DNA of 44,310 nucleotides from Gammaproteobacteria bacterium. Its GTDB lineage: Bacteria; Pseudomonadota; Gammaproteobacteria; Ga0077536. Location: the NCBI GenBank assembly GCA_019747795.1, contig JAIEQK010000225.1:1-44310 (forward strand). Direction: 5' to 3'. The translations under genes were made by a program, and so were the position numbers. Below the pieces are notes generated by a model. That model ran no database searches and was not told the origin of the DNA. It saw only the letters and a list, made by a program, of their open reading frames with translations. The number at the start of each line of letters is the position of its first letter. Within the stretch, counting starts at the first letter, position 1. Shown here piece after piece: positions 13,588 to 41,497 of the stretch.

Positions 13588-13736
13588 CTCGCAGGGGCAG
13601 CGCGCCGGCGGGCGCCCCACCAGGCGCAGAACACCGCTGAGGCAGCCAGGCGCCGGCAGGGCGCGACACGGCGAGCGGGGCAGGGGACGCCAGGGCAGCG
13701 AGGCCGGGTAACGAGCGAAACCCCAAGGTGTTGTGT

Positions 13737-13784
13737 GTTCACGATGCGAACAACACCATGCTACCATGCGTTCACATTTTGAAC
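13737..13784 (+). promoter_or_regulatory. Promoter with two operator-like repeats, module A
   Basis: Two 15-base sites of the form GTTCA-N5-TGAAC lie here: GTTCACGATGCGAAC (13737-13751, one arm mismatch) and GTTCACATTTTGAAC (13770-13784, perfect). Between them sits a sigma70-like promoter: TTCACG (13738-13743), an 18-base spacer and TACCAT (13762-13767). The first site covers the -35 and the second the expected start point, and their centres are 33 bases apart. This is the layout of an autorepressor. The regulator ATG follows at 13793. Confidence 0.6.
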
Positions 13785-13792
13785 GGGGCCCC

Positions 13793-14410
13793 ATGAAACG
13801 CGAGCCAGGCGAAGCACGCACGCTCGAGATCCTCGAAGCCATCGAGGCCCGGCGTGACGTCACCCAGCGACGGCTCGCGGACCAGCTCGGCGTCGCCCTG
13901 GGGCTCGCCAACTCCTATCTCAGGCGCTGCGTGCGCAAGGGCCTGGTCAAGATCCAGCAGGCGCCGGCCAATCGCTACGTGTACTACCTGACGCCGCAGG
14001 GCCTGGCCGAGAAGAGCCGCCTCACCGCCGAGTACCTGCGTTCCTCCTTTGATTACTACCACCGCGCCGGCCAGGCGGTGGGCGAGTGCTTCGCCCGCTG
14101 CGAAGCCCAGGGCTGGCGTCGGCTGGTGCTGGCAGGCATGTCGGAGATCTCCGAGATCGCTTCGATCCGCGCCCACGACCTCGAGCTCCTCGGCACCATC
14201 GACCTCGGTGCCAAGGTGCCGCGCTTCATCGGTCGCCCGGTGTGGACCAGCACCGCCGCCGCGCCACCCTGCGACGCGGTGCTGTTCACCGCGCTGGCCG
14301 AGCCGCTCGACCTGTACGCCGCGCTGCTCGCGGCCTACCCGGCCGAGCGCGTGCTGGTGCCCGAGATCCTGAAGCCGGTGCTGGACGCGCCGCCGGAGGC
14401 GGAGGCCTGA
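13793..14410 (+). CDS. Winged-helix transcriptional regulator with Rossmann-like C-domain, copy A
   Basis: A 205-residue protein. Residues 9-72 form a winged helix-turn-helix of MarR-like type (VTQRRLADQLGVALGLANSY for the helix-turn-helix; RYVYYLTPQG for the wing). Residues 108-195 resemble a nucleotide-binding alpha/beta domain (WRRLVLAGMSEISEIASI, then LLGTIDLGAKVPRFIGRPV), as seen in sugar-linked proteins. I infer that it senses a pathway metabolite and controls the downstream genes and itself. A close homologue lies at 18043, behind the same operator type. ATG 13793 is chosen because it aligns with the start of copy B. It is three bases from the glycosyltransferase start. Confidence 0.8.
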   Translation: MKREPGEARTLEILEAIEARRDVTQRRLADQLGVALGLANSYLRRCVRKGLVKIQQAPANRYVYYLTPQGLAEKSRLTAEYLRSSFDYYHRAGQAVGECFARCEAQGWRRLVLAGMSEISEIASIRAHDLELLGTIDLGAKVPRFIGRPVWTSTAAAPPCDAVLFTALAEPLDLYAALLAAYPAERVLVPEILKPVLDAPPEAEA

Positions 14411-14413
14411 GGC

Positions 14414-15580
14414 ATGCGCCAGGTGGTCGTGAGCCTCGCGGACCTGTCCGCCTCCATCGGCGAGGCGGTGACTTCGGTGCGCCTGGCGCGAAGCTTCGCC
14501 GAACTGGGTCACGAGGTGACCTTGCTCGCGCCGACGCCGCGTGAGGCCCGGCCAGTGGTGGCGGCCGCGCCCGCGGCGGTGCGCTACTCGCCCAACGTCA
14601 CGCGCCTCGGTCTGCCCAATTCCCTGAATTCGCTGGTGCAGGTGTGGCTGGTGCTGGGCCTTGTGCTGCGCCGGCAGGTGGACGTGGTGTACGTGCGCGC
14701 TGCGTCGCTGACCTTCCTGTTCGGTCTCCTGCTGCGTGGCTGGACGCGCGTCGTCGTGGTGACCGAGCACCACGGCTGGCTCGCCGCCGAGCGGTTGATC
14801 TCCGGTCGCCGCACGTGGCTCGCGCCGCTCGAGCGCTGGCTGCAGGTGCTGGACGCACGCTGCGCGCGCCGCGTGCGCACGGTGGTGCCGGGCATTCGCC
14901 AGCGGCTCGCGGACGGCGGCGTCGAGGCCGCGCGCGTCATGGTGATCGGCAACGCCGCCGACACCGAGGCCATTCGGCCGCTGCCGCGCGAGCCGGCGCT
15001 GCACCGCTACGGGCTCGATCCGGCGCGCGTGTACCTGGGATTCCTCGGCAGTCTGACCGCCTGGCAGGGCCTGGACGACGTGCTGCGCGCCTTCGCGCGC
15101 CTCGCCCGCGAGGATGCGCGCCTGCACCTGCTGCTGGTGGGCGAGGGGCCGTGCCGCGCCGAACTGGAGGCGCTCGCTCGAGAACTCGGCCTCCAGTCGC
15201 GCGTGACCCTGCTCGGGCGGGTTGGTCACGAACAGGTCGGCGACGCGATGGCCTGCTTCGACCTCGCGTTGCTGCCCACCCACCGCGGCGCCTACGCCGA
15301 CATCGGGCGCTCGCCACTGAAGCTCCGCGAGTACGCCGCGGCCGGCCGCGCGGTGCTGGCCGCCGAGATCGATGCGGTCGACGCGCTCGCCGCCGAGCCG
15401 TGGATCGCCTTCTACCGGCCCGGCGACGCGGAGAGCTTCTGCGCGGCCGCGCGGCGCCTGCTCGGCGACGGTGCGCAGCTCGTCGAGGCGGGCCGCGCCG
15501 CGCGCGTCTACGCCGAGCAGCATTTTGCCTGGCCGGTGATCGCCGCGTCCATCCTGGCCGGGCTGCCGCGCGCCGCCTGA
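14414..15580 (+). CDS. GT4-type glycosyltransferase, copy A
   Basis: A 388-residue GT-B fold glycosyltransferase. The N-domain begins MRQVVVSLADLSASIGEAVTS and includes LARSFAELGHEVTLLAP. The C-domain shows LGFLGSLTAWQGLDDVLRAF near 200-220 and the nucleotide-sugar binding stretch SPLKLREYAAAGRAVLAAE near 301-319, typical of GT4. It is probably cytoplasmic or membrane-associated and adds a sugar to the growing repeat unit; donor and acceptor are unknown. It pairs with the regulator just upstream and is clearly homologous along its whole length to the gene at 18671. Confidence 0.88.
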   Translation: MRQVVVSLADLSASIGEAVTSVRLARSFAELGHEVTLLAPTPREARPVVAAAPAAVRYSPNVTRLGLPNSLNSLVQVWLVLGLVLRRQVDVVYVRAASLTFLFGLLLRGWTRVVVVTEHHGWLAAERLISGRRTWLAPLERWLQVLDARCARRVRTVVPGIRQRLADGGVEAARVMVIGNAADTEAIRPLPREPALHRYGLDPARVYLGFLGSLTAWQGLDDVLRAFARLAREDARLHLLLVGEGPCRAELEALARELGLQSRVTLLGRVGHEQVGDAMACFDLALLPTHRGAYADIGRSPLKLREYAAAGRAVLAAEIDAVDALAAEPWIAFYRPGDAESFCAAARRLLGDGAQLVEAGRAARVYAEQHFAWPVIAASILAGLPRAA

Positions 15581-15701: not shown

Positions 15702-17783
15702 GACGCGGCTGGCAAGTTGGCGCAGCCTGCGCACGACGCGGCGCAGGCGCGCCGAAGGCGACGGCGCCAGACCCTGCTGGCGCCGCAGCCACTGCTGCAT
15801 TCCCGCGTGCTGCCTGCGATGACGTTCCTCGGTCCGCTGCAACCTGTCCTTGAGCGCTAGGTATTCGCCCAAGGGATTGAACGCGAAGGCGCGTTCCTCG
15901 ATCTTGCTGGTCAAGGTCGGCGTGACGCCCCACGAGGGTGGGGGCTCTCCGGTCTCGAGCCCGGCAAGGAACTCGACGTCGAGGTCCAGGGCGCGTTGCT
16001 GATCGGGCGATAACTCGAGCAGATGCGCCGGGAGCGCCTCGGCCACCAGCTGACGGTAGCGCTCGTACCCCCAGGGCGCATGCGCGATGCATTCGGTGGT
16101 GTGAACGGTGACCCCGATGCGCATGTCCTGGTAAAGCCCCTCCTGGTTGGCCAGCCCGGTCAACCACATGCGGGGACGCGCCACGCACACCAGCGGAACG
16201 CCTTGATCCTTGGCCAGGATGGAGAAGCGCAGGTCGACCATGACGTGCGGAAGGAAGTCCTCGAACCGGGCCCGCAGAACGGAAGTGCGAAACGCGAACG
16301 TGCCCGAACCGATCAGGTTGACGAAGCGGTCGGACGCCAGGGCGGCCTGAAACGGATACCCGACCGAACGCTCAAAGTACCAACCCGGGTGCTCCGGCAG
16401 CACCGACCCATGCACGGCGACGCCGACCTTGTCGCCGTACTTGTGCATGGTGGCGAGCATGCGTTCGACGTAGTCGGGCGGGAAGAGAATGTCGTCATCC
16501 AGCGAGAAGAAGTAGCAGTCATCGAGTTCACCAAGGGCAAAGGTCTTGCCTATGGCGCTCAAGTTCCAGTAATCCTGGCTGCGGAACACCGTGATCCTGG
16601 CGTCGTCCAGAAACGCTGGGATGCTCGCATAGTCGTTCAGAAAGACGAAGAGATGGTCGACCTGCGGCAGTATGCTGGCCACGGACTGGGCGAACACGGG
16701 CTCACGGGCCGCATAGGACGCGACGCCGGCGACGACGCGGCACGGCGGTATGGACGGTATCCGGCGTAGCCGCAGGACCAGATCCGCCGGCACTGGCCGG
16801 GCCGGATCGATTCTGCTCTCCATGAGCGCCTTGCGTTCGGACAGCTCCGCCACGCGCCGCGCAGCCCGGGATTGCGCGGCCGCGCTGCGTGCGAGGCCGC
16901 GGCGCGCGGAGGTCAAGCGACCGTGCAGGAACGCGAGGCTGTCCGGTGGGACGGGCAGTTCCGCCGCCTGGTCGCGCAGGTCCGTCGCGTAAGCGAGCAA
17001 CTCGTCGGAACTCACGGCGCCGGCGGCGAAACCGGTCAACGCGCGATAGAGTTCGCGCGTGACGACCGACAGTTCCACATCCTTCCGCGCGACGTCCGCT
17101 GCCGGGTGCTCGTGCTCGTCGAGCCTAGGGGCGGGTGGCTGTTCGACGACCTGTACCTCGTCGTCAGCGCCGAGAAGGCTCTCCAGTCTGGCGAGATAGC
17201 TGCGGCGATCGCGGTGCCAGGATTCCCAGCGGAACACGTTGAGGCGCCCGCCGGTACGGAGGACGGCATCGAGATGGTGGCCTATCCAGGCCAGTTCTGC
17301 GGCCGGGGCGGACAGGTCCTCGGTGATCTGCATCTCCACGAGCGCGGCTCGCGGATCGCGCAGGCACAGGACGAAACGGGGCTCACAATTGAGCGCGTCG
17401 AAGACTCTGCGCCAGAGCGGCAGCAGGTGGGCCGTTTCACGTGCCGCGATCGTCCAGGGGTGCTGGGTCTCGCGTTGACATTGTCCGAGGTGGGCGAGCA
17501 GGCGCGACTCGATGCGACGCGTGAACGCCTGCTCCAGCCAATCGGCAGGCAGCGGCAGATGCGCGAGCAGTTCCGGCCGGCGGTCGAAGTGACGCAGGAG
17601 CGCTCGGGACAACCTGCCTATCGTGCGGTCTTCGTGAGCCGCGGGCGTGTCCGACGCGAGCGCGCTCGTCTGCGCCAGGAAGCACGCCACTTCAGATTTC
17701 GCCGCACCCAGCACCACCAGGACTCGGCGAGGTGCCTTGCCGACCTCAGGCGAGGGGGAAAGCGCCGGCTTCTGTCTCGCCAC
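15660..17783 (-). CDS. Sulfotransferase-like N-domain fused to GT2-type glycosyltransferase
   Basis: About 707 residues, on the strand opposite its neighbours. The N-terminal third looks like a degenerate sulfotransferase: RRVLVVLGAAKSEVA stands where PAPS-binding HRSGTS would be, and FVLCLRDPRAALVEMQ resembles the 3'-phosphate loop. From about residue 348 a GT-A domain begins (RVVAGVASYAAREPVFAQSV), with a DDD metal motif near 428 in YFFSLDDDILFPPDYVERM. A basic tail ends the protein. The frame is open to 17939, but a TACCAT -10 box at 17854-17849 suggests starting at GTG 17783 (or TTG 17792). It lies between the two regulator modules and interrupts the first. Confidence 0.8.
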   Translation of the reverse strand: MARQKPALSPSPEVGKAPRRVLVVLGAAKSEVACFLAQTSALASDTPAAHEDRTIGRLSRALLRHFDRRPELLAHLPLPADWLEQAFTRRIESRLLAHLGQCQRETQHPWTIAARETAHLLPLWRRVFDALNCEPRFVLCLRDPRAALVEMQITEDLSAPAAELAWIGHHLDAVLRTGGRLNVFRWESWHRDRRSYLARLESLLGADDEVQVVEQPPAPRLDEHEHPAADVARKDVELSVVTRELYRALTGFAAGAVSSDELLAYATDLRDQAAELPVPPDSLAFLHGRLTSARRGLARSAAAQSRAARRVAELSERKALMESRIDPARPVPADLVLRLRRIPSIPPCRVVAGVASYAAREPVFAQSVASILPQVDHLFVFLNDYASIPAFLDDARITVFRSQDYWNLSAIGKTFALGELDDCYFFSLDDDILFPPDYVERMLATMHKYGDKVGVAVHGSVLPEHPGWYFERSVGYPFQAALASDRFVNLIGSGTFAFRTSVLRARFEDFLPHVMVDLRFSILAKDQGVPLVCVARPRMWLTGLANQEGLYQDMRIGVTVHTTECIAHAPWGYERYRQLVAEALPAHLLELSPDQQRALDLDVEFLAGLETGEPPPSWGVTPTLTSKIEERAFAFNPLGEYLALKDRLQRTEERHRRQHAGMQQWLRRQQGLAPSPSARLRRVVRRLRQLASRVLGVIRRRVLLRPR

Positions 17784-17848
17784 GTCTGCCAAGGTCCAAC
17801 ATCGATGTCTGGTTCTAACGTGCCTGCACGGAACTTTCGCGCTGCGCA

Positions 17849-17854
17849 ATGGTA
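17849..17854 (-). promoter_or_regulatory. Possible -10 box for the reverse glycosyltransferase gene
   Basis: TACCAT in the context GGTTACCATTGCGC on the minus strand matches the pattern seen before other transcription units in this window. It would start transcription near 17842, 50-60 bases before the proposed GTG/TTG start. No good -35 is visible. Confidence 0.3.
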
Positions 17855-17985
17855 ACCAGTGCGGGCCTCGAGGAACATCGCCCTCGTCTCCGCTGTGCCC
17901 TTTGCACATTGGCGACGCGCCCATCGGCCCGCGCAGCACGAACTCTCCCTGTCAGCGTCTGCCTGACGAGCGCCCTAGCGAAAGC

Positions 17986-18016
17986 GTTCACGAAATGAAC
18001 GACAGCGTGTTAGCAT
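17986..18016 (+). promoter_or_regulatory. Promoter with operator-like repeat, module B
   Basis: GTTCACGAAATGAAC (17986-18000) is a perfect GTTCA-N5-TGAAC repeat. It covers the -35-like TTCACG (17987-17992), followed by an 18-base spacer and the -10 TAGCAT (18011-18016). The arrangement is the same as at 13737-13767. A weaker partial match (10 of 15) at 18028-18042 sits next to the ATG at 18043. The sequence from 17784 to 17985 has no other gene. Confidence 0.6.
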
Positions 18017-18042
18017 GCGGCCTCGCGATACACGAAGTGAGT

Positions 18043-18666
18043 ATGAGACCGAAGGTCGGCGAGCAGCACACGCTTGAGATTCTCGAGGCTATCGAGGCTC
18101 GGCGGGACGTCACGCAGCGTCGCCTGGCTGATCAGCTCGGTGTCGCGCTCGGGCTCACCAATTCCTACCTGCGGCGGTGCGTGCGGCAGGGGCTGGTGAA
18201 GATCCAGCAGGCGCCGGCCAACCGCTATTTCTACTACCTGACGCCGCAAGGCATGGCGGAGAAAAGCCGGCTGGCGGTGGCCTACCTGCGCTCCTCGCTC
18301 GGCTACTACCATCGAGCAGGCGAGTCCATCGGCGCCTGCTTCGCGCATTGCCAGGCGCAGGGGTGGCGCAGGCTGGTGCTGGCCGGGATGTCGGAGATTG
18401 CCGAGATAGCTTCCATTCGCGCCCACGACTTCCATATCGAAGTGCTGGGCACCATCGATCTCGGCTCCAAGGTCGATGTCTTCCTGGGCCGGCCGGTATG
18501 GACCACGACCGGCGCGGCGCCCAGCTGCGACGCCGTGGTGTTCACGGCGCTGGCGGAACCCATCGCGTTGCATTCGGCCCTGCTGGCGCATTACGCCCCC
18601 GACCGAGTGCTGGTTCCCGAGATCCTGCGCTCCGTGCTGGACACGCCGCAACCTCACACTGCGTGA
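18043..18666 (+). CDS. Winged-helix transcriptional regulator with Rossmann-like C-domain, copy B
   Basis: A 207-residue homologue of the protein at 13793. The DNA-binding domain is almost unchanged (VTQRRLADQLGVALGL, then NSYLRRCVR), while the C-domain varies more and has a two-residue insertion (HDFHIEVLGT versus HDLELLGT). Conserved DNA-contact residues together with the same operator suggest both copies bind the same sites and may cross-regulate. The difference in the sensor domain could mean different ligands (inference). The ATG 18043 directly abuts the second, weaker repeat. It is followed at once by glycosyltransferase copy B. Confidence 0.8.
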   Translation: MRPKVGEQHTLEILEAIEARRDVTQRRLADQLGVALGLTNSYLRRCVRQGLVKIQQAPANRYFYYLTPQGMAEKSRLAVAYLRSSLGYYHRAGESIGACFAHCQAQGWRRLVLAGMSEIAEIASIRAHDFHIEVLGTIDLGSKVDVFLGRPVWTTTGAAPSCDAVVFTALAEPIALHSALLAHYAPDRVLVPEILRSVLDTPQPHTA

Positions 18667-18670
18667 CATC

Positions 18671-19849
18671 GTGCGTCAGGTGCTGATCAGCCTCGCGGAC
18701 TTGAGCGCTTCCATCGGCGAGGCGGTGACGTCCATCCGCCTCGCCCGCACCTTCGCCGAACTCGGCCACGAGGTAACGTTGTTGGCACCGGCGCCCGCCG
18801 GCAGCCGGCCGGTCGTCGCGGCCAGGCCAGCCCGGGTGCGCCACAGCTTGAATGTCGCGCGCTGGGGCCTGCCCAACTCGCTGAACACCCTGGTCCAGCT
18901 GTGGATCGTACTGAGGATGGTGTTGGCCGGCGAAGTGGACGTCATCTACGTGCGCTCGGCTTCGCTCACGTTCCTGTACGGCCTGCTGTTCCGCGGCTGG
19001 ACCCGAGTTCTCGTGGTCAGCGAACACCACGGCTGGCTGGCCGCCGAGCGACGGATCTCCGGACGCTACGCCTGGCTTGCACCGCTGGAGCGCTGGCTGC
19101 AACTGCTGGATGCCCGGTTCGCCAGCCGTGTCCGCACCGTCGTGCCGGGGATCCGTCAGCACCTCACCGCCGGTGGGGTGAATGCCGAGCGTGTGGTCGT
19201 CATCGGCAACGCCGCCGACACCGAGGCGATCCGACCGCTCCCGCGCAATCCGGCGCTCGCGAAGTTCGGCCTCGATCCCGACGGCGTCTATCTCGGGTTT
19301 CTCGGCAGTCTCACGCCCTGGCAAGGGCTCGACGATGTACTGCCTGCCGTGGCCCAACTGGCCGCACGGGACCCACGCATTCGTCTGCTGCTGTGTGGCG
19401 AGGGCCCCTGTCGGGCGACGCTCACGGCGCAGGCCCAGGCGCTCGGCATCGCCGACCGAGTCGTATGGCTGGGTCGCGTCGCTCATGACCAGGTGGCCCG
19501 GGTGCTCGCCTGCTTCGACCTCGCCCTGCTCCCCACCCATGTGGGCGCCTACGCGGAGATCGGTCGCTCGCCGCTCAAACTGCGCGAATACGCGGCAGCG
19601 GGGCGCGCCGTGCTGGCCGCCGAGATCGATGCGATCGATTCCCTGGTGGGCCAGCCCTGGATCGAGTTCTATCGGCCTGGTGACCTCGAAGGCTTCTGCG
19701 CCACCGCGACGCGCCTGCTGACAGACCGCGCGGCGCTGGAGCGCGCCGGACGCGCGGCGCGCGACTACGCCGAAAGTCACTACGCCTGGCCGGTGATCGC
19801 CCGCAGCATCCTCGCCGGTCTGCCGCTGCCCGCCAGGGTCGGGCCCTGA
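18671..19849 (+). CDS. GT4-type glycosyltransferase, copy B
   Basis: A 392-residue homologue of the gene at 14414, sharing nearly all motifs (EHHGWLAAERRISGRYAWL, VIGNAADTEAIRPLPRNPAL, SPLKLREYAAAGRAVLAAE). The start is GTG 18671, four bases after the regulator stop, and aligns with the ATG of copy A. DNA divergence is concentrated at third codon positions while protein changes are few, so this is an old or separately acquired duplicate under purifying selection. Donor and acceptor are unknown. Confidence 0.88.
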   Translation: MRQVLISLADLSASIGEAVTSIRLARTFAELGHEVTLLAPAPAGSRPVVAARPARVRHSLNVARWGLPNSLNTLVQLWIVLRMVLAGEVDVIYVRSASLTFLYGLLFRGWTRVLVVSEHHGWLAAERRISGRYAWLAPLERWLQLLDARFASRVRTVVPGIRQHLTAGGVNAERVVVIGNAADTEAIRPLPRNPALAKFGLDPDGVYLGFLGSLTPWQGLDDVLPAVAQLAARDPRIRLLLCGEGPCRATLTAQAQALGIADRVVWLGRVAHDQVARVLACFDLALLPTHVGAYAEIGRSPLKLREYAAAGRAVLAAEIDAIDSLVGQPWIEFYRPGDLEGFCATATRLLTDRAALERAGRAARDYAESHYAWPVIARSILAGLPLPARVGP

Positions 19850-25772: not shown

Positions 25773-27710
25773 ATGTGCGGCATATTCGGACTCATCGCAC
25801 TCCCACAAGCCGGCCTGGATCGTGCGGCCTGTACCACGCTCCTGGACGAGCTGTTCAGACGCTCCGAGTCTCGTGGGCGCGAGGCGGCCGGGCTTGCCAT
25901 CCGCTACCAGGACCAACTGTCGGTCTTCAAGAAGCCGCTCGCCGCGTCCGAGATGATCAAGCGCGCGGACTATCAACGCATGCTGGGAACCGCCATCCCG
26001 GATCGCCGGCTGACCGGACCTCTGGCGGTCATCGGGCACTCAAGACTGGTGACCAACGGTTTCCAGGCTGAACCGGACAACAATCAACCGGTCGTGCGGG
26101 GTGACGTGGTCGTTGTTCACAACGGCATCGTGGTGAACATCGATTCGCTGTGGGAATCCTGCGATGAAGCGCGCGGCAGCGACGTCGATACCGAGATCAT
26201 CGCCGCGATGCTCGCGCACGCGGCCGAGCGCGCGCAGGACCTGGCCGAGGGCGTGCGAAAATTCTATCGCGAGCTGGTCGGCACGGCGGCCATAGGCGTG
26301 CTCTCGGCAGCGCATTCCATGCTGCTGCTGGCTTCGAACTACCACACGCTCTATTTCGTCCGGGACACCGCGGAGGGCGTCCTGCTGTTCGCTTCGGAAC
26401 GCTTCATCGTAGAGCAGCTCATGGCGCATCCAAGTCTGCGCCACCTGTCACCGGGGCCCATAGAAGTGGTCGGACCTCGGCAGTTCGTCACCATCGACTT
26501 CGATCGACTCGCGGTGACCTGGCGCGAAGTGATGACCCCGGCCGAGGCGGAATCACCCATTGCGCCGGCGTCGGCGAAGCTCCGGGTTCGCGACTACGCG
26601 CGGGACGACGATCCGGCGCGTGCCGAGCTGCGGCGCTGCACCAGGTGCATTCTTCCGGACACGATGCCGTTCATCGAGTTCGACGCCGCGGGTGTCTGCA
26701 ATTTCTGCCGCGATCATCGGCCGTTCGAATACGAAGGCGAAGACGAACTGCGTCGCGAACTGGAGACCTACCGACGTCGCGACGGCAGGCCGGACTGCAT
26801 CGTCGGTTTCAGCGGCGGCCGGGACAGCTCTTACGGCCTGCATCTGCTCAAGTCCGAGTTCGGCATGCATCCGCTGGCGTTCACCTACGACTGGGGCATG
26901 GTCACCGATCTCGCGCGACGCAACCAGGCGCGCATCTGCGGCAAGCTCGGCGTCGAACACGTGATCGTCTCGGCGGATATCCAGCAGAAGCGCAACTTCA
27001 TCCGCAAGAACGTCCTGGCCTGGCTCAAGCGGCCAAGACTCGGCATGGTTCCCCTGTTCATGGCGGGGGACAAGCAATACTTCTATTACATGAATCAGGT
27101 GGCGCGTCAGAACGACATCAAGCTGATCATCTTCTGCGAGAACGGCAAGTTCGAGCGCACGCATTTCAAGTCCGGGTTCGCCGGGATCAACGAAGGGAGT
27201 CGGCGCGCGTTCAATGTGAGCGTCGCCGAGAAGATGCGCCTGGTGGCCTACTATCTCGGCAATTTCCTCGCGACCCCGGCTTACATCAACGCATCGCTGT
27301 GGGACACGGCGTTCGCCTTCTTCTCGTCCTACGTGCTGGGTCACGAGGATTATCTGTTCCTCTACGATTACATCCGCTGGCAGGAGCACGAAGTGGAGGG
27401 GACGCTCCGCTCGGTGTATGACTGGGAAATGGCGCCGGATACCAACTCTTCCTGGCGCATCGGCGACGGTACGGCGGCCTTCTACAATTACATCTATTTC
27501 ACCATGGCCGGATTCACCGAGAACGACACGTTCCGCAGCAAGCAGATTCGCGAGGGCCTCATCGCGCGGGACGATGCCCTGAGACTGGTCGCTGAAGAGA
27601 ACCGACCCCGCTGGGAGTCCCTGCAGTGGTACGCGCAGCAGGTGGGCTTCGATTTGAACGAAGCGCTGCGCATCATCAATGGCGCGCCCAAGCTCTATCG
27701 GGCGGAATGA
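25773..27710 (+). CDS. Fused class II glutaminase + N-acetyl-sugar amidotransferase (WbpG-like)
   Basis: A 645-residue two-domain protein. Residues 2-270 form an Ntn-type class II glutamine amidotransferase: MCGIFGLIAL gives Cys2 as the nucleophile after Met removal, and HSRLVTNG and VVHNGIVVN match the glutamine site. Residues 289-640 match N-acetyl-sugar amidotransferases: a zinc-type C289-x2-C292 ... C309-x2-C312 cluster and a PP-loop GFSGGRDSSYGL near 345-356 for ATP. WbpG normally gets ammonia from separate HisH/HisF-like partners; here the glutaminase is on the same chain, as in AsnB. The likely product is an acetamidino sugar. It overlaps the next gene. Confidence 0.87.
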   Translation: MCGIFGLIALPQAGLDRAACTTLLDELFRRSESRGREAAGLAIRYQDQLSVFKKPLAASEMIKRADYQRMLGTAIPDRRLTGPLAVIGHSRLVTNGFQAEPDNNQPVVRGDVVVVHNGIVVNIDSLWESCDEARGSDVDTEIIAAMLAHAAERAQDLAEGVRKFYRELVGTAAIGVLSAAHSMLLLASNYHTLYFVRDTAEGVLLFASERFIVEQLMAHPSLRHLSPGPIEVVGPRQFVTIDFDRLAVTWREVMTPAEAESPIAPASAKLRVRDYARDDDPARAELRRCTRCILPDTMPFIEFDAAGVCNFCRDHRPFEYEGEDELRRELETYRRRDGRPDCIVGFSGGRDSSYGLHLLKSEFGMHPLAFTYDWGMVTDLARRNQARICGKLGVEHVIVSADIQQKRNFIRKNVLAWLKRPRLGMVPLFMAGDKQYFYYMNQVARQNDIKLIIFCENGKFERTHFKSGFAGINEGSRRAFNVSVAEKMRLVAYYLGNFLATPAYINASLWDTAFAFFSSYVLGHEDYLFLYDYIRWQEHEVEGTLRSVYDWEMAPDTNSSWRIGDGTAAFYNYIYFTMAGFTENDTFRSKQIREGLIARDDALRLVAEENRPRWESLQWYAQQVGFDLNEALRIINGAPKLYRAE

Positions 27711-31852: not shown

Positions 31853-31888
31853 TCGGCTTGGTGGCCGGCAGGCGACGAGGGGCCTTGA

Positions 31889-33241
31889 GTGGCGACGGCA
31901 AATCTGAAGGCGATCTACCGCAGCCTCGTGCCGATACCGGTGAGGCGGGCGGTCTACCAATTGCGTCGCCGCGCGGCGGCGCTGGCCGGCGGCCGTCGGG
32001 AGGAGGCGCAAGCGGCCCAGCCGGTCGCAGCACGCACCGAGGGCCGCGCCAGGCGCATGACGCAGGAGGACATCCTGGTCCGCTACCTGAACGGCATCGC
32101 CCTGCATTCCTATCGACTGCGGCAACTGTTCGCGGAGCAGCCGCCGCCCCCCTACGGTGTCATTCTGGCCCACGAGGCCTTCATCAGCGGCCTGACAGCG
32201 TTGCGGATCGCTGAGCAGCATCCCGGCAGTCGCCTGCTGCTGGACAATGTCGAGTACCCGCGAATCAGCGGACGTTCGAGTCAGGCGCGCGAGTCGGCGA
32301 AGCGCGACATGCTGGGCGACCGGCTCCTGAGCGCGTTCGTCGCGCAGATCGCCAACGAGTTCGATCAGCTGTTTGCGACGAGTAGGGGGCAGGCGGACGT
32401 GCTGCGTGAGATCGGTGTGACGCGCCCCGTCTCTCTCCTGCGCAACATGCGTCTACGCGCGCGACTCTCGCGCGACGATCAGATCCGGCGCGACGCAGGC
32501 TGCCTCGAGGGGCAGACCCTGCTCTTGTATCCCAACAATGTCTACGAACTGGGCGGCGCGGAGGAATGCCTGCAGGCATTGCATCGGTTGCCGGCCGAGT
32601 TTCATCTGGCTTTCCTCGGGGAGGTGCAGAAGGGCCTCGAGGCACGGGTCGACGCACTGCTGAAGACCTACGGGCTCGTCGAGCGCGTGAAGTTTCTGAA
32701 GCCGGTCCAGCCGGACAGGCTGATTGGCTACATCTCTGGCGCCGATGTTTCAATCGTTCCGCTCAGGCCCGAGATTGCCAATCATCAGCACTGCCTGCCG
32801 AACCGGATCTTCGAGTCCATTGCCGCCGGAGTGCCGCTTGTCGTGCCGAGCGGCTCGGAGATCGGTGCGTTCGTGCAGGCGCACGGTGTCGGTGTGACCT
32901 TTCCGGATTTCGAAGCTGACAGCGTGGCCGAGACGCTGCTGCGAGCGGTGAACGGGCGACGCGCCGGCGCATTCGACGAGGCCATCGAGACGGCGCAGCG
33001 GGACCTGGTCTGGGAGAACGAGCAAACGGTGCTGCAGGAGGCGCTGCGCCCGGTCCTGGAGACGGGGCCGCGCCGCTGCCTGGTGGTCGCCTGCAAGCGC
33101 ATCGAGCGCAATGACCGCTTGTTCAGGATTACGCACACGCTCAGATCCATGGGGTTCGAAGTCGATGTCGCGGCGTACTCGCGGCCTTACCAAGGACTGG
33201 TGCTGGACGGGGTCAATTACCTGCTCATTCCACGCGAGTGA
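31889..33241 (+). CDS. GT4-like glycosyltransferase with apparently permuted domain order
   Basis: A 450-residue protein starting at GTG 31889 behind a GAGGGG site. The middle matches the N-domain of GT4 enzymes from the substrate loop onwards (RLLLDNVEYPRISGRS, then FDQLFATSRGQADVL). The C-domain follows (LLLYPNNVYELGGAEECLQA; LPNRIFESIAAGVPLVVPSG near 305-325). The usual first strand and helix are missing at the N-terminus. A similar element occurs instead as the last 56 residues (RRCLVVACKRIERNDRLF... to the stop). It is probably a cytoplasmic glycosyltransferase with unknown donor. Confidence 0.8.
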   Translation: MATANLKAIYRSLVPIPVRRAVYQLRRRAAALAGGRREEAQAAQPVAARTEGRARRMTQEDILVRYLNGIALHSYRLRQLFAEQPPPPYGVILAHEAFISGLTALRIAEQHPGSRLLLDNVEYPRISGRSSQARESAKRDMLGDRLLSAFVAQIANEFDQLFATSRGQADVLREIGVTRPVSLLRNMRLRARLSRDDQIRRDAGCLEGQTLLLYPNNVYELGGAEECLQALHRLPAEFHLAFLGEVQKGLEARVDALLKTYGLVERVKFLKPVQPDRLIGYISGADVSIVPLRPEIANHQHCLPNRIFESIAAGVPLVVPSGSEIGAFVQAHGVGVTFPDFEADSVAETLLRAVNGRRAGAFDEAIETAQRDLVWENEQTVLQEALRPVLETGPRRCLVVACKRIERNDRLFRITHTLRSMGFEVDVAAYSRPYQGLVLDGVNYLLIPRE

Positions 33242-33335: not shown

Positions 33336-35288
33336 TCACGCGGTCGCGGCGCGGGGTGGCGGTCGGTGGGTCTTTGCGATGCTCTCGAGCAGCACGTTGG
33401 TCAACGCGGGTCGGTCATCCATCGGTGCCGCGCAGAGCAGGGCACTGCCGTCGCTCACGAACAACAACCCGTTGCCGCGACGCCCGAGGGCGCGGCGGAC
33501 ATCGGCGTCCACCAGCAGCACCGTCTGCCCAGTGAAGCGGCCGAGCGCCAATATCTGCCCGCTCTCGTTCAGCCGGCCAAGAGGGCCGCAGTCGACTGCG
33601 ACTATCGGCGAGTCCTCGCATGCCAGATGCAAGGACTGCAGGAGTGCCCGGAGTATGTCGATGTGCGGGCGGTTCAGCGGCTGCTCGAGGCGGGCGACGC
33701 GGCGGACCTTGTCTGGCGATACCACCTGCCCGCCGCTGGACAGCACCCGGGAAAGCCAATCGGCGTCCTCGTCCCGTAGTTCCATGGCTTGTGTCGGGCG
33801 CGGTACCGCCTGGCGGGCAGTGCCCAGGGCCTTGACCAGCTGACCCGAGGCGTCGCCGGATGCCATGAGCAATGCTTCGAATTGCTCCAGGGCCCCATTC
33901 ACGTCCATGCCACTGCCGGTGATGCAGTGAACGGTGCCGGGCTCGAGCGAGCCACTGAGCTCTTGTACCTCCGGCGTGTGGAGTCGCCACGTCAAGGGAC
34001 GATTCGCGAGGTCGCGAGCGCCCAAAGGAAGGATCCGATCCGCCTGCCAGACCCCGGACTGGAGACCGAACTCGACATGTCGGCCGCGACCCTGCCCTGC
34101 CGCCTCGTTGTCGAGATCGGTGATTAGTGCTCGCAGGCGCACGAGATGCGGAATGAAACGGTTGATTGAGGTCAGTGTCACCATGCTGCCCTCGATGCCG
34201 AGCAGTACGAAGCGCAGGCCGAACAGCAACAGCAGCAGGGAACTCGCGCTCGCGATGTGAAGATCCTGGTATGCGTACAGCAGCCATACCAGGATGCCGA
34301 TCCCGGCGGCCACCATGGACGACATGGTGACGCGCGAAAGTTCGGTGACGCGCAGGCGCTGTTCCAGCACGCTGACGTACCGCTCGAGGGTGTCGCCCGT
34401 CACCGGTCCGGCCGGGGTGGCGAGGGCCGGGACGTCGTCGTCGTCCTGCGAGAGGATGTCATCCCCCGTGCCGAGTCCCATCTCGCTATCCGCTCGAAAT
34501 CCCTCCAGCGCGGACTCGAGGCGCGCCTTCAGGTAGGTCGCCCGCAACGCACTGAACTCCTCGAGACTGCGGGTGGTGCGCGCCGCGCGCAGGGTGAGCG
34601 GATACATGGCGGTGGCCGCAATCAGTGCAAAGGCGCCTATCAACGGCAGCAGCAGCGGCGCGTGGAACGCCAGGACCATCAAGCCGACCGCGATGTTGCC
34701 GAGGTGGGTGATGTTGAACAGCGCCAGCCGCGCCGCCACACCGGGAAAGCGGCTGTCGCTGATCAGCACGCGCATGAGTTGATGGCGAGCCGACAGGAGC
34801 GGGCGGCGCAGGATCTTCACGGTGCGCCGAACGTCATCCGGCGCTACTTTCAACCGCTCGATGATGTAATCGATGAAATGGAGATAGAGTTGGCACTCGA
34901 CATTGATGGCTATGCTGCGGCCCACATAGCCGACGACGCTTCCTATGGCGAACAACCCGACGAACAGCGACAGGAGCGTGCCGGTAGTCGGTGCGGGCAG
35001 GAGAACGCCCACGGAATCCAGCAACGGAAAGTGTGTGAGTTCACTTCGTGACTGCATCGCAGCCACCGCGCGTACCAGTATGCCCAGCGCGGCGGCATGC
35101 AAGACGATACCGAGCGTCGAGGCGGTGGCGGAACTGAGCATCGGGCGGTAGCACTTGCGGATGGTCAGGCGTCCGAACCATGCAACCAGGGCGAAATAGG
35201 CGCGGGCTCGCCAGAGGGCATCCCGCAGGGGACGTCTCGACGCGCGCTTGCTGCTCGCGGCAGTGCTCGGCAGGTGCGCTTTCTCCAT
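33336..35288 (-). CDS. ABC exporter-like protein with degenerate ATPase domain
   Basis: A 650-residue protein starting at ATG 35288 with a GGGAGC ribosome site five bases upstream; the frame is open further upstream but without coding character. Residues 30-370 hold about six membrane helices in type I ABC exporter layout. The C-terminal third keeps the outline of an ATPase but lacks key residues. The Walker A position reads ITGSGMDVNG (no Lys, no Ser/Thr), the signature is replaced by LSSGGQ, and the Walker B position reads IVAVDCGPLG without catalytic Glu. It is convergent with the GT ending at 33241. The role is unknown; ATP-driven export seems unlikely. Confidence 0.72.
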   Translation of the reverse strand: MEKAHLPSTAASSKRASRRPLRDALWRARAYFALVAWFGRLTIRKCYRPMLSSATASTLGIVLHAAALGILVRAVAAMQSRSELTHFPLLDSVGVLLPAPTTGTLLSLFVGLFAIGSVVGYVGRSIAINVECQLYLHFIDYIIERLKVAPDDVRRTVKILRRPLLSARHQLMRVLISDSRFPGVAARLALFNITHLGNIAVGLMVLAFHAPLLLPLIGAFALIAATAMYPLTLRAARTTRSLEEFSALRATYLKARLESALEGFRADSEMGLGTGDDILSQDDDDVPALATPAGPVTGDTLERYVSVLEQRLRVTELSRVTMSSMVAAGIGILVWLLYAYQDLHIASASSLLLLLFGLRFVLLGIEGSMVTLTSINRFIPHLVRLRALITDLDNEAAGQGRGRHVEFGLQSGVWQADRILPLGARDLANRPLTWRLHTPEVQELSGSLEPGTVHCITGSGMDVNGALEQFEALLMASGDASGQLVKALGTARQAVPRPTQAMELRDEDADWLSRVLSSGGQVVSPDKVRRVARLEQPLNRPHIDILRALLQSLHLACEDSPIVAVDCGPLGRLNESGQILALGRFTGQTVLLVDADVRRALGRRGNGLLFVSDGSALLCAAPMDDRPALTNVLLESIAKTHRPPPRAATA

Positions 35289-35794
35289 TGCTCCCGGATC
35301 GATGTCGGCTTGGCTGAACTGAAGTACGCGGGTACGACCGGATGGACCGGTGAGGCGGCGGAAAGTTACGGACCGTGCGAGGTCGCTTCGCGTGGCGACT
35401 ATGGCGGTTCCCGACAGGCCGCGCAAGCCGCGCGCGGTACGCTGTCCTTCGCTTTGACTAGGGGCGCCAGAGTGGTTGCCGACGCTGGAGTCCGGTGCGG
35501 TGTTTTCGCTACGCTCCGTGGCGCGCCGGCGAGGGCCGGGTGCCGAGCGCGCGAAACGGCCGGGCGAGTGCTCGAGCCCGGCGGCGGCCCCGGTACCTGC
35601 AGGATGTGCCGCCCCCCGTGGACGGGTCGATGACGGCCCCCACCGGTCGAGGTTGGTCAGGAGAAACGGTCCGGAGACACGATGATCTGCGCCTCTTCTC
35701 GCACCTGCGTGGCCGCCGGCTCTGCCAAGCAGAGGATCGCCGTTCGCCGACCTAAGCACGCCGGCCGAAAAGCCGGACTTCGAGCCTAGCGCCG
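35289..35794. other. 506-base stretch without a recognisable gene
   Basis: This region divides the divergent ABC-like gene and the GT at 35795. Open frames exist on both strands, but none has recognisable motifs or a good ribosome site. A short CCGGC-cgaaaa-GCCGG hairpin lies at 35761-35776. It presumably contains the promoters for both genes, but I cannot place them. Confidence 0.4.
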
Positions 35795-37132
35795 GTGCTC
35801 GACCGCGGCGGTTCTTTCACTTGGAGACGTCGGCTGGCGTCGTTGCTGACGCGGGCGGCCGACGGACTCGTGCCGCCCCCTTCCCGGGGGAGCGAGGGGG
35901 CGGGCGCCGCCGACCGGCGGGTCGAGAATCTGAAACGCGCCCAGCAGGCGCAGATCGAGCGCTTTGAACGGCGTCTCGCCGTGGCGCAGACCGCGCTCGA
36001 CGAGTACAACGCCAATCGGCCTGTTCTGACGTTCCTGCGCTTTGCGCGCCTGTGCGCGGCGGCGCGCACGGCGCTGGCCGCGGACGTCTACGTGGCTCAC
36101 GGCGTGCAAGCGCTGCCCGCGGCCGCGCTTCTGGCGCACGTCGACACCAAACGGCACATGTGCGACGTGATCGAGATCCCGTCCTTCCAGGCGCGCGCGG
36201 AGCCGTCGAAGTGGCAGGCCAGCAACGTCGAGTTCGTCGATCGAGCCCTGGAGTCCTACCTGCGCCACGCTGACGGTCTCATCACCATCGGCGCTGCGCT
36301 CGGCGAACGGCTCGCCGGTCTTCACGCGCGGGTGAGTGTGATTCCCAACTATCGCCGCGCCGAAACGCTTGTAAGGAGCAACGCGCTGCGTCAGCGCTGC
36401 GGCGTGGGCGAAGAGGCGTCGCTGGTGGTAGCGATCAGCAACGTCTCGTCCGGATTCGAACTGGTCCTCGAGGCGCTCGCACGCCTGCCGCGTGCGGTGC
36501 ACCTTGCCACCATCGGCAGGTTCTCGCCCCCGGACTACCGCGCCAGGTGCTTCGCCCTTGCCGAGCGATTGGGCGTGATGGCGCGATGGCATTGCCTGGA
36601 CCCGGTGCCCTATGCGGAGCTTGCGTCCTTCGCCTCGGCCGCCGACGTCGGGTTGATCGTGCGTGACCCAGGCATTCTGAACAATCAGATATCGCTGCCG
36701 AACCGCATCTTCGACTACATGGCCGCATCGCTGCCGGTATGCTCGCCGGACATCCCGGACATCGCGCGACTGATCACCACCTGGGAGATGGGAATCGTCG
36801 TGCGGGACGCTTCCCCCGCGGCCTGGGCCGCGGCCATCGCCGAGGTCTTGTCCCGCCGCGCCGCCATGGCGGCCCAGGCCGGGCGAGCCGCCGCGGCGCA
36901 CGTGTGGGAGGCGTTGGAAGAGCCGTTGCACGATGCGCTAGGACGTCCGCGCAGCGTCACGTTTCTCGGCCTCAGTCACTTGTGCGACAACAACCGGACG
37001 GTGCGCATGGCGCGTTCCCTGGCTGCGCGCGGTGTGCAGGTGACATTGGCTTCGCCGCCGCCACGCGGCGACTCCGTCACCCGCAACGAGGTGTCGGACG
37101 CGGGTATCCGCGTGGAGAACCTGCAGCTGTAG
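35795..37132 (+). CDS. GT4-like glycosyltransferase with apparently permuted domain order, second example
   Basis: A 445-residue protein starting at GTG 35795. Residues 40-75 are predicted coiled (RVENLKRAQQAQIERFERRL). N-domain features begin with DVYVAHGVQALPAAALLA and ADGLITIGAALGERLAG. The C-domain includes LPNRIFDYMAASLPVCSPD near 302-320. The last 60 residues (RSVTFLGLSHLCDNNRTVRM...) resemble the first strand-helix-strand of an ordinary GT4, which is missing at the N-terminus, as in the protein at 31889. Donor and acceptor are unknown. Confidence 0.78.
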   Translation: MLDRGGSFTWRRRLASLLTRAADGLVPPPSRGSEGAGAADRRVENLKRAQQAQIERFERRLAVAQTALDEYNANRPVLTFLRFARLCAAARTALAADVYVAHGVQALPAAALLAHVDTKRHMCDVIEIPSFQARAEPSKWQASNVEFVDRALESYLRHADGLITIGAALGERLAGLHARVSVIPNYRRAETLVRSNALRQRCGVGEEASLVVAISNVSSGFELVLEALARLPRAVHLATIGRFSPPDYRARCFALAERLGVMARWHCLDPVPYAELASFASAADVGLIVRDPGILNNQISLPNRIFDYMAASLPVCSPDIPDIARLITTWEMGIVVRDASPAAWAAAIAEVLSRRAAMAAQAGRAAAAHVWEALEEPLHDALGRPRSVTFLGLSHLCDNNRTVRMARSLAARGVQVTLASPPPRGDSVTRNEVSDAGIRVENLQL

Positions 37133-38825: not shown

Positions 38826-40142
38826 TCACGCGATGGCGCGTGGCGGCAAGAGCGCGCGCAGCCAGGTGTCGTACTCCAGGGATTCTCGCTCCCAGCTGAG
38901 GCTCCGCGCGGCGTGTTCGACGCGCTCGCGCAGCGTCGCCTGGCGAGCCGGCTCCAGCACGCGCAGCAGCGCGACGGCGAGGCTCCGCGGATCACGTTCG
39001 TCGCAGGTTTCGCCGATCCCGTGGCTCGTGACCAGCTGCGCCAGATCGGGCAGGTTCGCCACCACGAGCGGCAGGCGTGCCATGATCATCTCGAACAGCC
39101 GGTTGGGCATGGCGAGCTGGTGATTCTGGCGGGTGTTCTGCAGTGCGATCACGCCGACGTCTGCCCCGGCGAACATGCCGACCACTTCGTCCGCGGCGCA
39201 AGGCGCGGGAAAGTGCAGACGCCCACCGACTCCGCGTCGGGCAGCAAGGTCTTCCAGCGTGGCGCGATAGGCGACGTTGCGCACAGGACCGAGCAGAGCG
39301 AGATGTACCGCGGGGGGCAGCAGCGCCAGCGCTTCGATGAGCTGTTCGATGCCCGCGTCCGGCACGATGGAGTTGGCGCTCAGCACCAAGTGATCTTCGG
39401 CGCCCAGCGCGCAAGCCGCGCGCAGACGTGGATCGCGGCACGCCGGCTGCCATTCACGGCAATTGCGCAGCAGCCGGGGCGCGGCAATCCCATATCGTGC
39501 GGCCATCCAATCGCGCAGGCCCGGGCCGACCGTGAGAACCAGGTCGGCGCGTCGAATCATGCGCGCTTCGCGCCAGGACTCCAGGCGCCGTAGCCCACGG
39601 GCGAGCGCGCCGGTGGCGAAGACCGCGCGGCCCTCCACCGCCTCGACCCCGTCGTACACCAGCCGCGCTCCATGGCGCCTTGCGAGCGCGCAGGCCGCGC
39701 GCAACGCCGGGCTGTCGTGGGCTTGCACCACCTCGCAGGGTTGGCCACCCAGCAGGGACAGGCAGGCACGTGCGAACAGCGTGCGCGCGATGAGCTCGCT
39801 CCAGGGCAGCAGCAGCCTGCGGAGCGCGCGCAGCACCGCGCCGTCCGCCGCGCGATCGACAGGCGTTGCCGGTTCCCGGTCAGGAGCCGAGGGCGTCGAA
39901 CTGGCGCTGCGCTTCAGGTACCGACGCGCCGCCTGGAGCGGGTGCGGCAGCACCACGGTCAGGTATTCGACTTCGGGCGCGCGGCTGCGCAGGGAAGCCA
40001 CCGGCGGCGCGAGGGAAGCAACGGTCACCCGCCAGCCGGCGCGTGCCAGCGTGGCGGCCTGGCGATGCACGCGGGTGTTGTAGGTGAGATCCTTGGCCGC
40101 GAGCAGGATGATGCTCGGCGCGCCCGGGGCCATCTGTGTCAC
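38826..40142 (-). CDS. GT4-type glycosyltransferase, conventional domain order
   Basis: A 438-residue GT-B enzyme. The N-domain begins normally: IILLAAKDLTYNTRVHRQAA, then LARAGWRVTVASLAP. It continues with VVQAHDSPALRAACALA and LVYDGVEAVEGRAVFA. The C-domain includes MPNRLFEMIMARLPLVVANL near 336-355. It resembles the proteins at 31889 and 35795, which carry the opening element at their C-termini. The GTG 40142 overlaps the stop of the upstream gene as GTGA; an ATG at 40133 is an alternative. Confidence 0.84.
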   Translation of the reverse strand: MTQMAPGAPSIILLAAKDLTYNTRVHRQAATLARAGWRVTVASLAPPVASLRSRAPEVEYLTVVLPHPLQAARRYLKRSASSTPSAPDREPATPVDRAADGAVLRALRRLLLPWSELIARTLFARACLSLLGGQPCEVVQAHDSPALRAACALARRHGARLVYDGVEAVEGRAVFATGALARGLRRLESWREARMIRRADLVLTVGPGLRDWMAARYGIAAPRLLRNCREWQPACRDPRLRAACALGAEDHLVLSANSIVPDAGIEQLIEALALLPPAVHLALLGPVRNVAYRATLEDLAARRGVGGRLHFPAPCAADEVVGMFAGADVGVIALQNTRQNHQLAMPNRLFEMIMARLPLVVANLPDLAQLVTSHGIGETCDERDPRSLAVALLRVLEPARQATLRERVEHAARSLSWERESLEYDTWLRALLPPRAIA

Positions 40143-41497
40143 CGTCGACCGCTGTGGCCGACGAGTCGCGCCAGCAGCCCACCCACCGCGCGAAACGCCA
40201 GCCCCTGGATGCGGAACAGCGTGCGAACCACGGCCAGTTCCACCCGGCGCATGCCGGCCTCGAGCGCTGCCAGAACGCGCAGCGCGGCCCGCGCATCCTG
40301 GCCGAGCACGGCGGGCGGCTGCTGTGGCGCGATGGCCGCAGTGAGCCGCGGGCGAAAGAACGTCAGCGCCGACCCTGGCTCGCGCGGCGCCATGCCCGAG
40401 CCGAGCGATGCATGGCACAGTGCGACGTAACGGTCGGCGATGTGCTCGATGTCGTGGTGACGTTCCACCAGCGCCCGGCCGCTGCGAGCCAGTTCTTCGC
40501 GCCACGCGAAGTCGCGGATCAGGCGGCGCAGCGTGTCTTCGATGGTGTCGGGCGTGGCATTGGCCACGGGGAGTTCCGAGACCCCGTAGAAGGGCTCGAA
40601 GAGGTCGCGACGCAGGTATGTCACGCACGGTTTGGCGAGTGCCCAGGCCTCGAGGGTCAGCACGCCCGTGGCGCCAATGAGGAGTTGATCGACGATGATG
40701 TCGGCGCGGCGATACCACTCCCTCGCCTCGGCGTGAGGAACGCGGTCGAGCAGCTTGAAGTCGAACGCCAGACCCTCGTGACGTAGCGTGTCCAGCGCGC
40801 GCACTACGAAGGCCGAGCCCTTGACTTCGCCGTTGCTGGGCGCGTGCACCACCAGTGGGCGAAGGGTGGGGGCCACGCCTACCGGTTCCCACGCGCTCAA
40901 TTCCAGGCCGCGCGGCAGGATGTGCGCCTCTGGCATGAACTGTCCCATCTCCGGGTCCTGGACGAAGAATCGGTCGACGTAGTCGCGCAGCATTGCGATA
41001 TAGGCATGTTGAGCGCGCTCGTCGAACGGGCTCTGGTAACCGTAGCGGAATGGGCTGTGCGGGTTGAGCCGCAAGTCCGCGCCCGCCATGCGCAGGTCGA
41101 AGCCCGTGAAGCGATGGAAGAGCCGCGCGCCCCGCGACTTGATGATCGGCAGGTCGAGGCCGGTCAGGCCGTCGAGGCTGGTGCTGTAGAGCAGCGAGCG
41201 CTGCCAGAAGTGGAAGATGTCGAAGCCGGACCGCAGCTGTTCTTGCAACACCTCGAGCTGGCGCCCGAAGTCGCTGTTCGTCAGGCGTGCCACCCGGTCC
41301 AGTGCATAGCCCAGCGGGTGGGCCCCCATCGCGCTGTACTGCAGATGATTGGCCTCGATGCCCCGGCGGCGCAGGGCGCGCACCAGCGCCATCGGTTGGT
41401 CGGCGAAATTCATGGGCGCCATCAGCACCTTGAACGGGGCCGCGGGCGTCGGCGCGGGGCTTGACATCTTGCGTCGCACTGTTGAAAGGACGTTCAT
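40139..41497 (-). CDS. GT-B glycosyltransferase, paralogue of gene at 37246
   Basis: A 452-residue protein sharing the opening FKVLMAPMNFADQPMALVRA, the FHRFTGFDLRMAGADLR segment and LLIGATGVLTLEAWALAKPC with the gene at 37246. The start is ATG 41497; an ATG at 41467 (MSSPAPTPAAP) matches the paralogue's start better, and neither has a clear ribosome site. It is the first gene of the reverse block 41497-37246 and diverges from the dehydratase at 41615. The C-terminal extension is shorter than in the paralogue. Sugar specificity is unknown. Confidence 0.82.
   Translation of the reverse strand: MNVLSTVRRKMSSPAPTPAAPFKVLMAPMNFADQPMALVRALRRRGIEANHLQYSAMGAHPLGYALDRVARLTNSDFGRQLEVLQEQLRSGFDIFHFWQRSLLYSTSLDGLTGLDLPIIKSRGARLFHRFTGFDLRMAGADLRLNPHSPFRYGYQSPFDERAQHAYIAMLRDYVDRFFVQDPEMGQFMPEAHILPRGLELSAWEPVGVAPTLRPLVVHAPSNGEVKGSAFVVRALDTLRHEGLAFDFKLLDRVPHAEAREWYRRADIIVDQLLIGATGVLTLEAWALAKPCVTYLRRDLFEPFYGVSELPVANATPDTIEDTLRRLIRDFAWREELARSGRALVERHHDIEHIADRYVALCHASLGSGMAPREPGSALTFFRPRLTAAIAPQQPPAVLGQDARAALRVLAALEAGMRRVELAVVRTLFRIQGLAFRAVGGLLARLVGHSGRR

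Follow-up and report, generated by a model that had tools for sequence, protein, structure and literature searches.

Two GT4-type glycosyltransferases with circularly permuted sequences beside a conventional paralogue in one gene cluster

Three related glycosyltransferase genes and their surroundings

The window analysed here (the whole stretch of 44,310 nt, positions 1-44,310) carries two genes for GT4-type glycosyltransferases that appear circularly permuted, and a third gene for a paralogue of conventional order. The first, P0001 (31889-33241, + strand), encodes 450 residues from a GTG start. Its residues 1-89 (31889-32155, +) are helical, poorly conserved and without a β1 unit; residues 90-393 (32156-33067, +) comprise, by Pfam and structural match, the remaining GT-B N-domain and the entire C-domain; and the last 57 residues (394-450; 33068-33238, +) form a tail assigned by profiles and model to the relocated β1-α1-β2-β3 unit. 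The earliest recognizable GT-B element is β4 (YGVILAHE, residues 89-96), and the C-domain contains the LPNRIFE motif and a C-terminal helix at 375-392. An in-frame TGA (31886-31888) directly precedes the GTG, so that an N-terminal unit cannot be hidden in frame upstream.

The second gene, P0002 (35795-37132, +; 445 residues), was missed by the first-pass annotation and makes the better case. It has the same unit order and the same cut as P0001, to which it is 28-29% identical, and its tail (residues 386-445; 36950-37129, +) was recognized as the relocated β1-α1-β2-β3 unit by Pfam, BLASTP and the model. Frameshift truncation was rejected for both proteins: each reading frame stops right before a convergent gene, which leaves no space for a glycosyltransferase remnant. 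GC3 is 0.82-0.84, coding-like and equal to that of the neighbouring genes.

The nearest relative of both proteins in the genome is P0003 (38826-40142, −). Its core is 33-34% identical to theirs and its N-terminal unit matches both tails, but it keeps the conventional order: the β1-α1-β2-β3 unit, homologous to both tails, lies at residues 9-60 (39963-40118, −).

The neighbourhood encodes nucleotide-sugar epimerases and dehydrogenases, a GT2 glycosyltransferase, a flippase-like protein and methyltransferases. Between P0001 and P0002 lies a gene (33336-35759, −) that by eye resembles an ABC-exporter half, with membrane and nucleotide-binding-like parts and a degenerate Walker A motif (GSGMDVNG); Pfam at E 1e-5 gave no match for a 646-aa part of it. 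P0003 is flanked by two similar glycosyltransferase-like proteins with PF13524 (37246-38745, −, and 40139-41497, −), both of which open with ...MAPMNFADQPMALVRALR and have long C-terminal extensions. At 25773-27710 (+), a glutamine amidotransferase domain is joined to a part that by eye resembles an N-acetyl-sugar amidotransferase of the WbpG/PseA type; Pfam confirmed the former domain alone, and the two are normally separate subunits. A regulator-like gene followed by a GT4 gene is present twice about 4 kb apart (13733-15580 and 17647-19849, +), as if this cassette had been duplicated. A similar cluster, with Gfo/Idh oxidoreductase, acyltransferase, DegT aminotransferase, wecB, asnB and GT4 genes, lies on a Pseudomonas frederiksbergensis plasmid (NZ_CP017887.1, 290110-306862), and all of its GT4 proteins are conventional.

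Homology of the tails to the GT4 opening unit

The first-pass annotation had proposed that P0001 lacks the opening unit of a GT4 at its N-terminus and carries it at its C-terminus instead. The absence was borne out: a search for the conventional N-unit in residues 1-89 found nothing (hhalign, 0.1%), and in the rotated alignment these residues match the variable linker that follows β3 in conventional relatives. The P0001 tail contains KRIERNDRLFRITHTLRSMG and P0003 opens with KDLTYNTRVHRQAATLARAG, and the two blocks align without gaps over 20 residues as described, although with seven identities (K, N, R, R, T, L and G) rather than the five that had been counted. The parallel drawn between LPNRIFE in P0001 and MPNRLFE in P0003 was correct.

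P0001 and P0002 are collinear from the core through the tail (BLASTP, E 7e-24, 28% identity), so that the permuted order is held between two diverged paralogues. Compared with P0003, P0002 aligned in blocks that are out of order (150-372/185-418 and 387-423/10-47), the second of them 42% identical. Pfam aligns PF13439 positions 7-36, the beginning of the GT4 N-domain, with P0002 residues 401-430 (E 2e-4). When a profile of the two junctions was run against the 5.9-Mb genome, the sole further match at E<=0.01 was the N-terminus of P0003 (39993-40121, E 0.0016).

An ungapped β1-α1-β2 profile built from 19 conventional relatives found its best site at residue 395 in P0001 and residue 386 in P0002, with scores equalled by 3 of 5000 and 1 of 5000 shuffled tails, respectively. 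Profile-profile comparison (hhalign) against ten conventional N-units gave a probability of 95.9% (E 5.5e-9, spanning β1 to β3) for both tails together and 94.7% for the P0002 tail by itself; the P0001 tail by itself reached 41% (E 3e-4), which is of moderate significance. The out-of-order homology thus appears both in this comparison and in the BLASTP alignment of P0002 with P0003.

The cleanest of the tests is the rotation scan, in which all rotations of each protein were scored against a profile built from 18 conventional relatives, with the window proteins left out. Rotation restored collinearity, with one best junction in each permutant: cutting P0001 at 389-394 raised the score from 141.7 to 154.2 bits (+12.5 over the native order) and cutting P0002 at 380-389 raised it from 169.5 to 186.4 bits (+16.9). 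Coverage of the profile widened from 114-420 to 3-419 and from 92-415 to 15-415, respectively. The control, P0003, scored highest at zero rotation, and the rotated scores were reached by 1 of 1000 shuffled-tail controls for P0001 and by 0 of 1000 for P0002. The Pfam N-domain models rose slightly on the rotated proteins and still fell under their cut-offs; Pfam alone would therefore not prove a permutation. Taken at the level of sequence, we regard the permutation in these two paralogous proteins as real and natural.

Predicted fold and family membership

For AlphaFold2, the conventional relatives in the input were trimmed, and the tail of each protein was covered only by the other permutant. 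The models reached a mean pLDDT of 81.3 and pTM of 0.78 for P0001, and 84.3 and 0.77 for P0002. The N-terminal segment of P0001 is modelled with helices at 5-13, 16-32 and 59-83. Its tail is modelled as a strand (396-401), a helix (409-420) and a strand (424-429), and that of P0002 as a strand (387-391), a helix (400-411), a strand (415-420), a helix (429-435) and a strand (439-442). By block, pLDDT in the tails is mostly about 90, with one P0001 block at 77; in P0001, the 19 residues beyond 431 are at about 30.

Both models have the two-domain GT-B fold and match solved GT4 structures at Z 19-25, mostly with 270-310 residues aligned. These alignments mostly begin at model residue ~56-80 and residue ~55-107 of the solved chain, and end at the C-terminal helix (~393). 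The first strands of the solved GT4s have no counterpart at the N-terminus of either model, and the remaining N-domain is modelled with four strands only; sequence and model agree in excluding an N-domain that already has its own first strand. The ranges of the structural matches behave as sequential, so the absence of the tail from them is uninformative about its packing. The economical reading of the models is that the tail would fill the place of the missing N-domain strands, probably inserting as strand 1.

In family terms, the C-domains of P0001 and P0002 match PF13692 (E 3e-10) and PF00534 over the curated cut-off, whereas a conventional-order GT4 N-terminal domain was not recovered in either protein (PF13439 and PF13579 under cut-off). 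Conventional GT4s, among them the solved HepE, MshA, BshA, WaaG, PglA and PimA, have a GT-B fold made of PF13439/PF13579 and PF00534/PF13692. The permutants share with them the C-domain, the remaining N-domain, the His of the AHD-type motif, the C-terminal helix and the β1-α1-β2-β3 unit; they differ in that this first unit is C-terminal and that their termini lie in the linker after β3. Of the EX7E-type acidic pair, the Glu of LPNRIFE is kept in P0001 and is Asp in P0002, and the partner Glu eight residues earlier is missing from P0001, P0002 and P0003. With Asp in place of the Glu of the family's LFE, activity of P0002 is not assured. NCBIfam models searched for a donor or acceptor assignment scored far under their cut-offs for both proteins.

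Alternatives, origin and occurrence of the permuted order

We considered three other explanations for a GT4-like opening unit at the C-terminus. The tail might be what remains of the opening of another GT4, fused in tandem downstream and later cut off, in which case the first domain would be degenerate and the tail unused. The same history of duplication, fusion and end loss would yield this arrangement, and the poorly modelled last 19 residues of P0001 would suit it. A useless remnant, however, should decay independently in each protein, whereas the length, boundaries and key residues of the tail are kept between P0001 and P0002 at 28-29% identity; the N-domain is also without first strands of its own, and the tail is modelled as a confident hydrophobic β-α-β unit. 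We therefore hold a truncated fusion to be very unlikely. No more probable, in our estimate, is that the tail supplies the missing unit to another chain's N-domain, in a dimer or between P0001 and P0002, whose genes lie close together and have the same order. Against such swapping stand the confident single-chain models and the general consideration that closure within one chain takes the shortest path, the C-terminal helix of a GT-B protein returning to its own N-domain.

β-α-β units look alike, and a C-terminal Rossmann-like extension could resemble the GT4 opening by chance; unrelated Rossmann proteins were indeed matched weakly by the junction profile, at E 0.001-0.006. The resemblance here extends to a specific N-x-R...L...G pattern and to the profile-profile score, shuffled sequences reproduced it at most 3 times in 5000 (ungapped profile) or once in 1000 (rotation), each protein has its optimum rotation precisely at the junction, and in their own genome the junction profile picks out P0003 alone at E<=0.01. 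Coincidence is thus scarcely credible. We conclude that, with high probability, P0001 and P0002 derive from a GT4-type GT-B glycosyltransferase by circular permutation, and that the tail would complete the N-domain sheet. The relocation of the opening unit proposed in the first-pass annotation is upheld by the tail homology, tail and conventional unit both ending at β3, by the rotation scan, the missing N-terminal strands and the recurrence in P0002.

In a permutant of this kind, the chain would begin in the variable linker after β3 and continue through the remaining N-domain and the entire donor-binding C-domain; the C-terminal helix would then lead straight into β1-α1-β2-β3, which would return to the N-domain and complete its sheet. 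The last helix of a GT-B protein crosses back onto the N-domain, which places the chain end near the start of β1. The new termini fall within a loop: many conventional relatives have a long, variable β3-β4 stretch where the permutants begin and end. The permutation would therefore be topologically cheap. The conserved N-x-R of the β1-α1 loop would be delivered by the C-terminus. These claims about fold and function are likely rather than certain.

A tree of the shared core places P0001, P0002 and P0003 in one group (94/93), so the permutation probably arose locally after gene duplication; the pairing of P0001 with P0002 is weak (80/24), and each sits on a long branch. The standard path to a permutation is gene duplication with fusion and subsequent loss of both ends, and with three related glycosyltransferases in one cluster such a route is plausible. 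It likely ran through tandem duplication of a P0003-like gene and in-frame fusion of the copies, after which the front of the first copy and the rear of the second would have been lost. The permuted gene would then have duplicated to give P0001 and P0002; their common cut point favours one event and hence a single origin of the order. No duplication or fusion intermediate was seen.

We found no third permuted protein in overlapping samples of 36 family, 369 class and 398 phylum genomes and two more of 134, and no permuted relative in 72,556 plasmids or in viral contigs. The relatives inspected (from the family, class and phylum samples, from Pseudomonas, Ruegeria and Agrobacterium plasmids, and from viral contigs) were all of conventional order. 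Two scans of genome contigs with poor automatic patterns returned one distant relative, also conventional. The weak junction-profile matches in G784, G094 and G096 were discarded as a short-chain dehydrogenase, a Kdo transferase and a sucrose-phosphate-synthase-like protein, respectively. A full-text search, with most subscription journals outside it, turned up no description of a naturally permuted GT-B glycosyltransferase. The description of P0001 as a first example fits these partial searches and is provisionally retained, except that there are two examples, P0001 and P0002, both in one genome.

Natural permutation is known elsewhere. GH70 glucansucrases are permuted relative to GH13 (PMC11046441), and there, as here, the units of a fold are reordered in a carbohydrate-active family that keeps its active site; they differ in being glycoside hydrolases with a TIM barrel and a large established family, as opposed to two GT-B proteins in one genome. 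In the cpCone clade of the lipocone superfamily (PMC12419801) a front element is likewise now C-terminal, and duplicated versions are taken as intermediates; the fold there is helical and unrelated, and among the permutants described here no intermediate was found.

The surface-polysaccharide character of the gene neighbourhood makes it most likely that P0001 and P0002 act as ordinary glycosyltransferases of that pathway. We lean slightly towards the full account, that they are the first recognized natural GT-B permutants, made locally from a neighbouring GT4 gene and working as enzymes whose active site is partly supplied from the C-terminus. Few enzyme families are as large as GT4 and few enzyme folds as common as GT-B; domain profiles and structure aligners presuppose a single chain order. 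Permuted proteins of this kind are liable to be annotated as truncated glycosyltransferases. For the family, the first unit of the N-domain could come from the C-terminus past the cross-over helix, and the break point may be usable for engineering permuted glycosyltransferases. With permutants and a conventional paralogue together in one cluster, the locus would offer a compact example of the way permutations originate.
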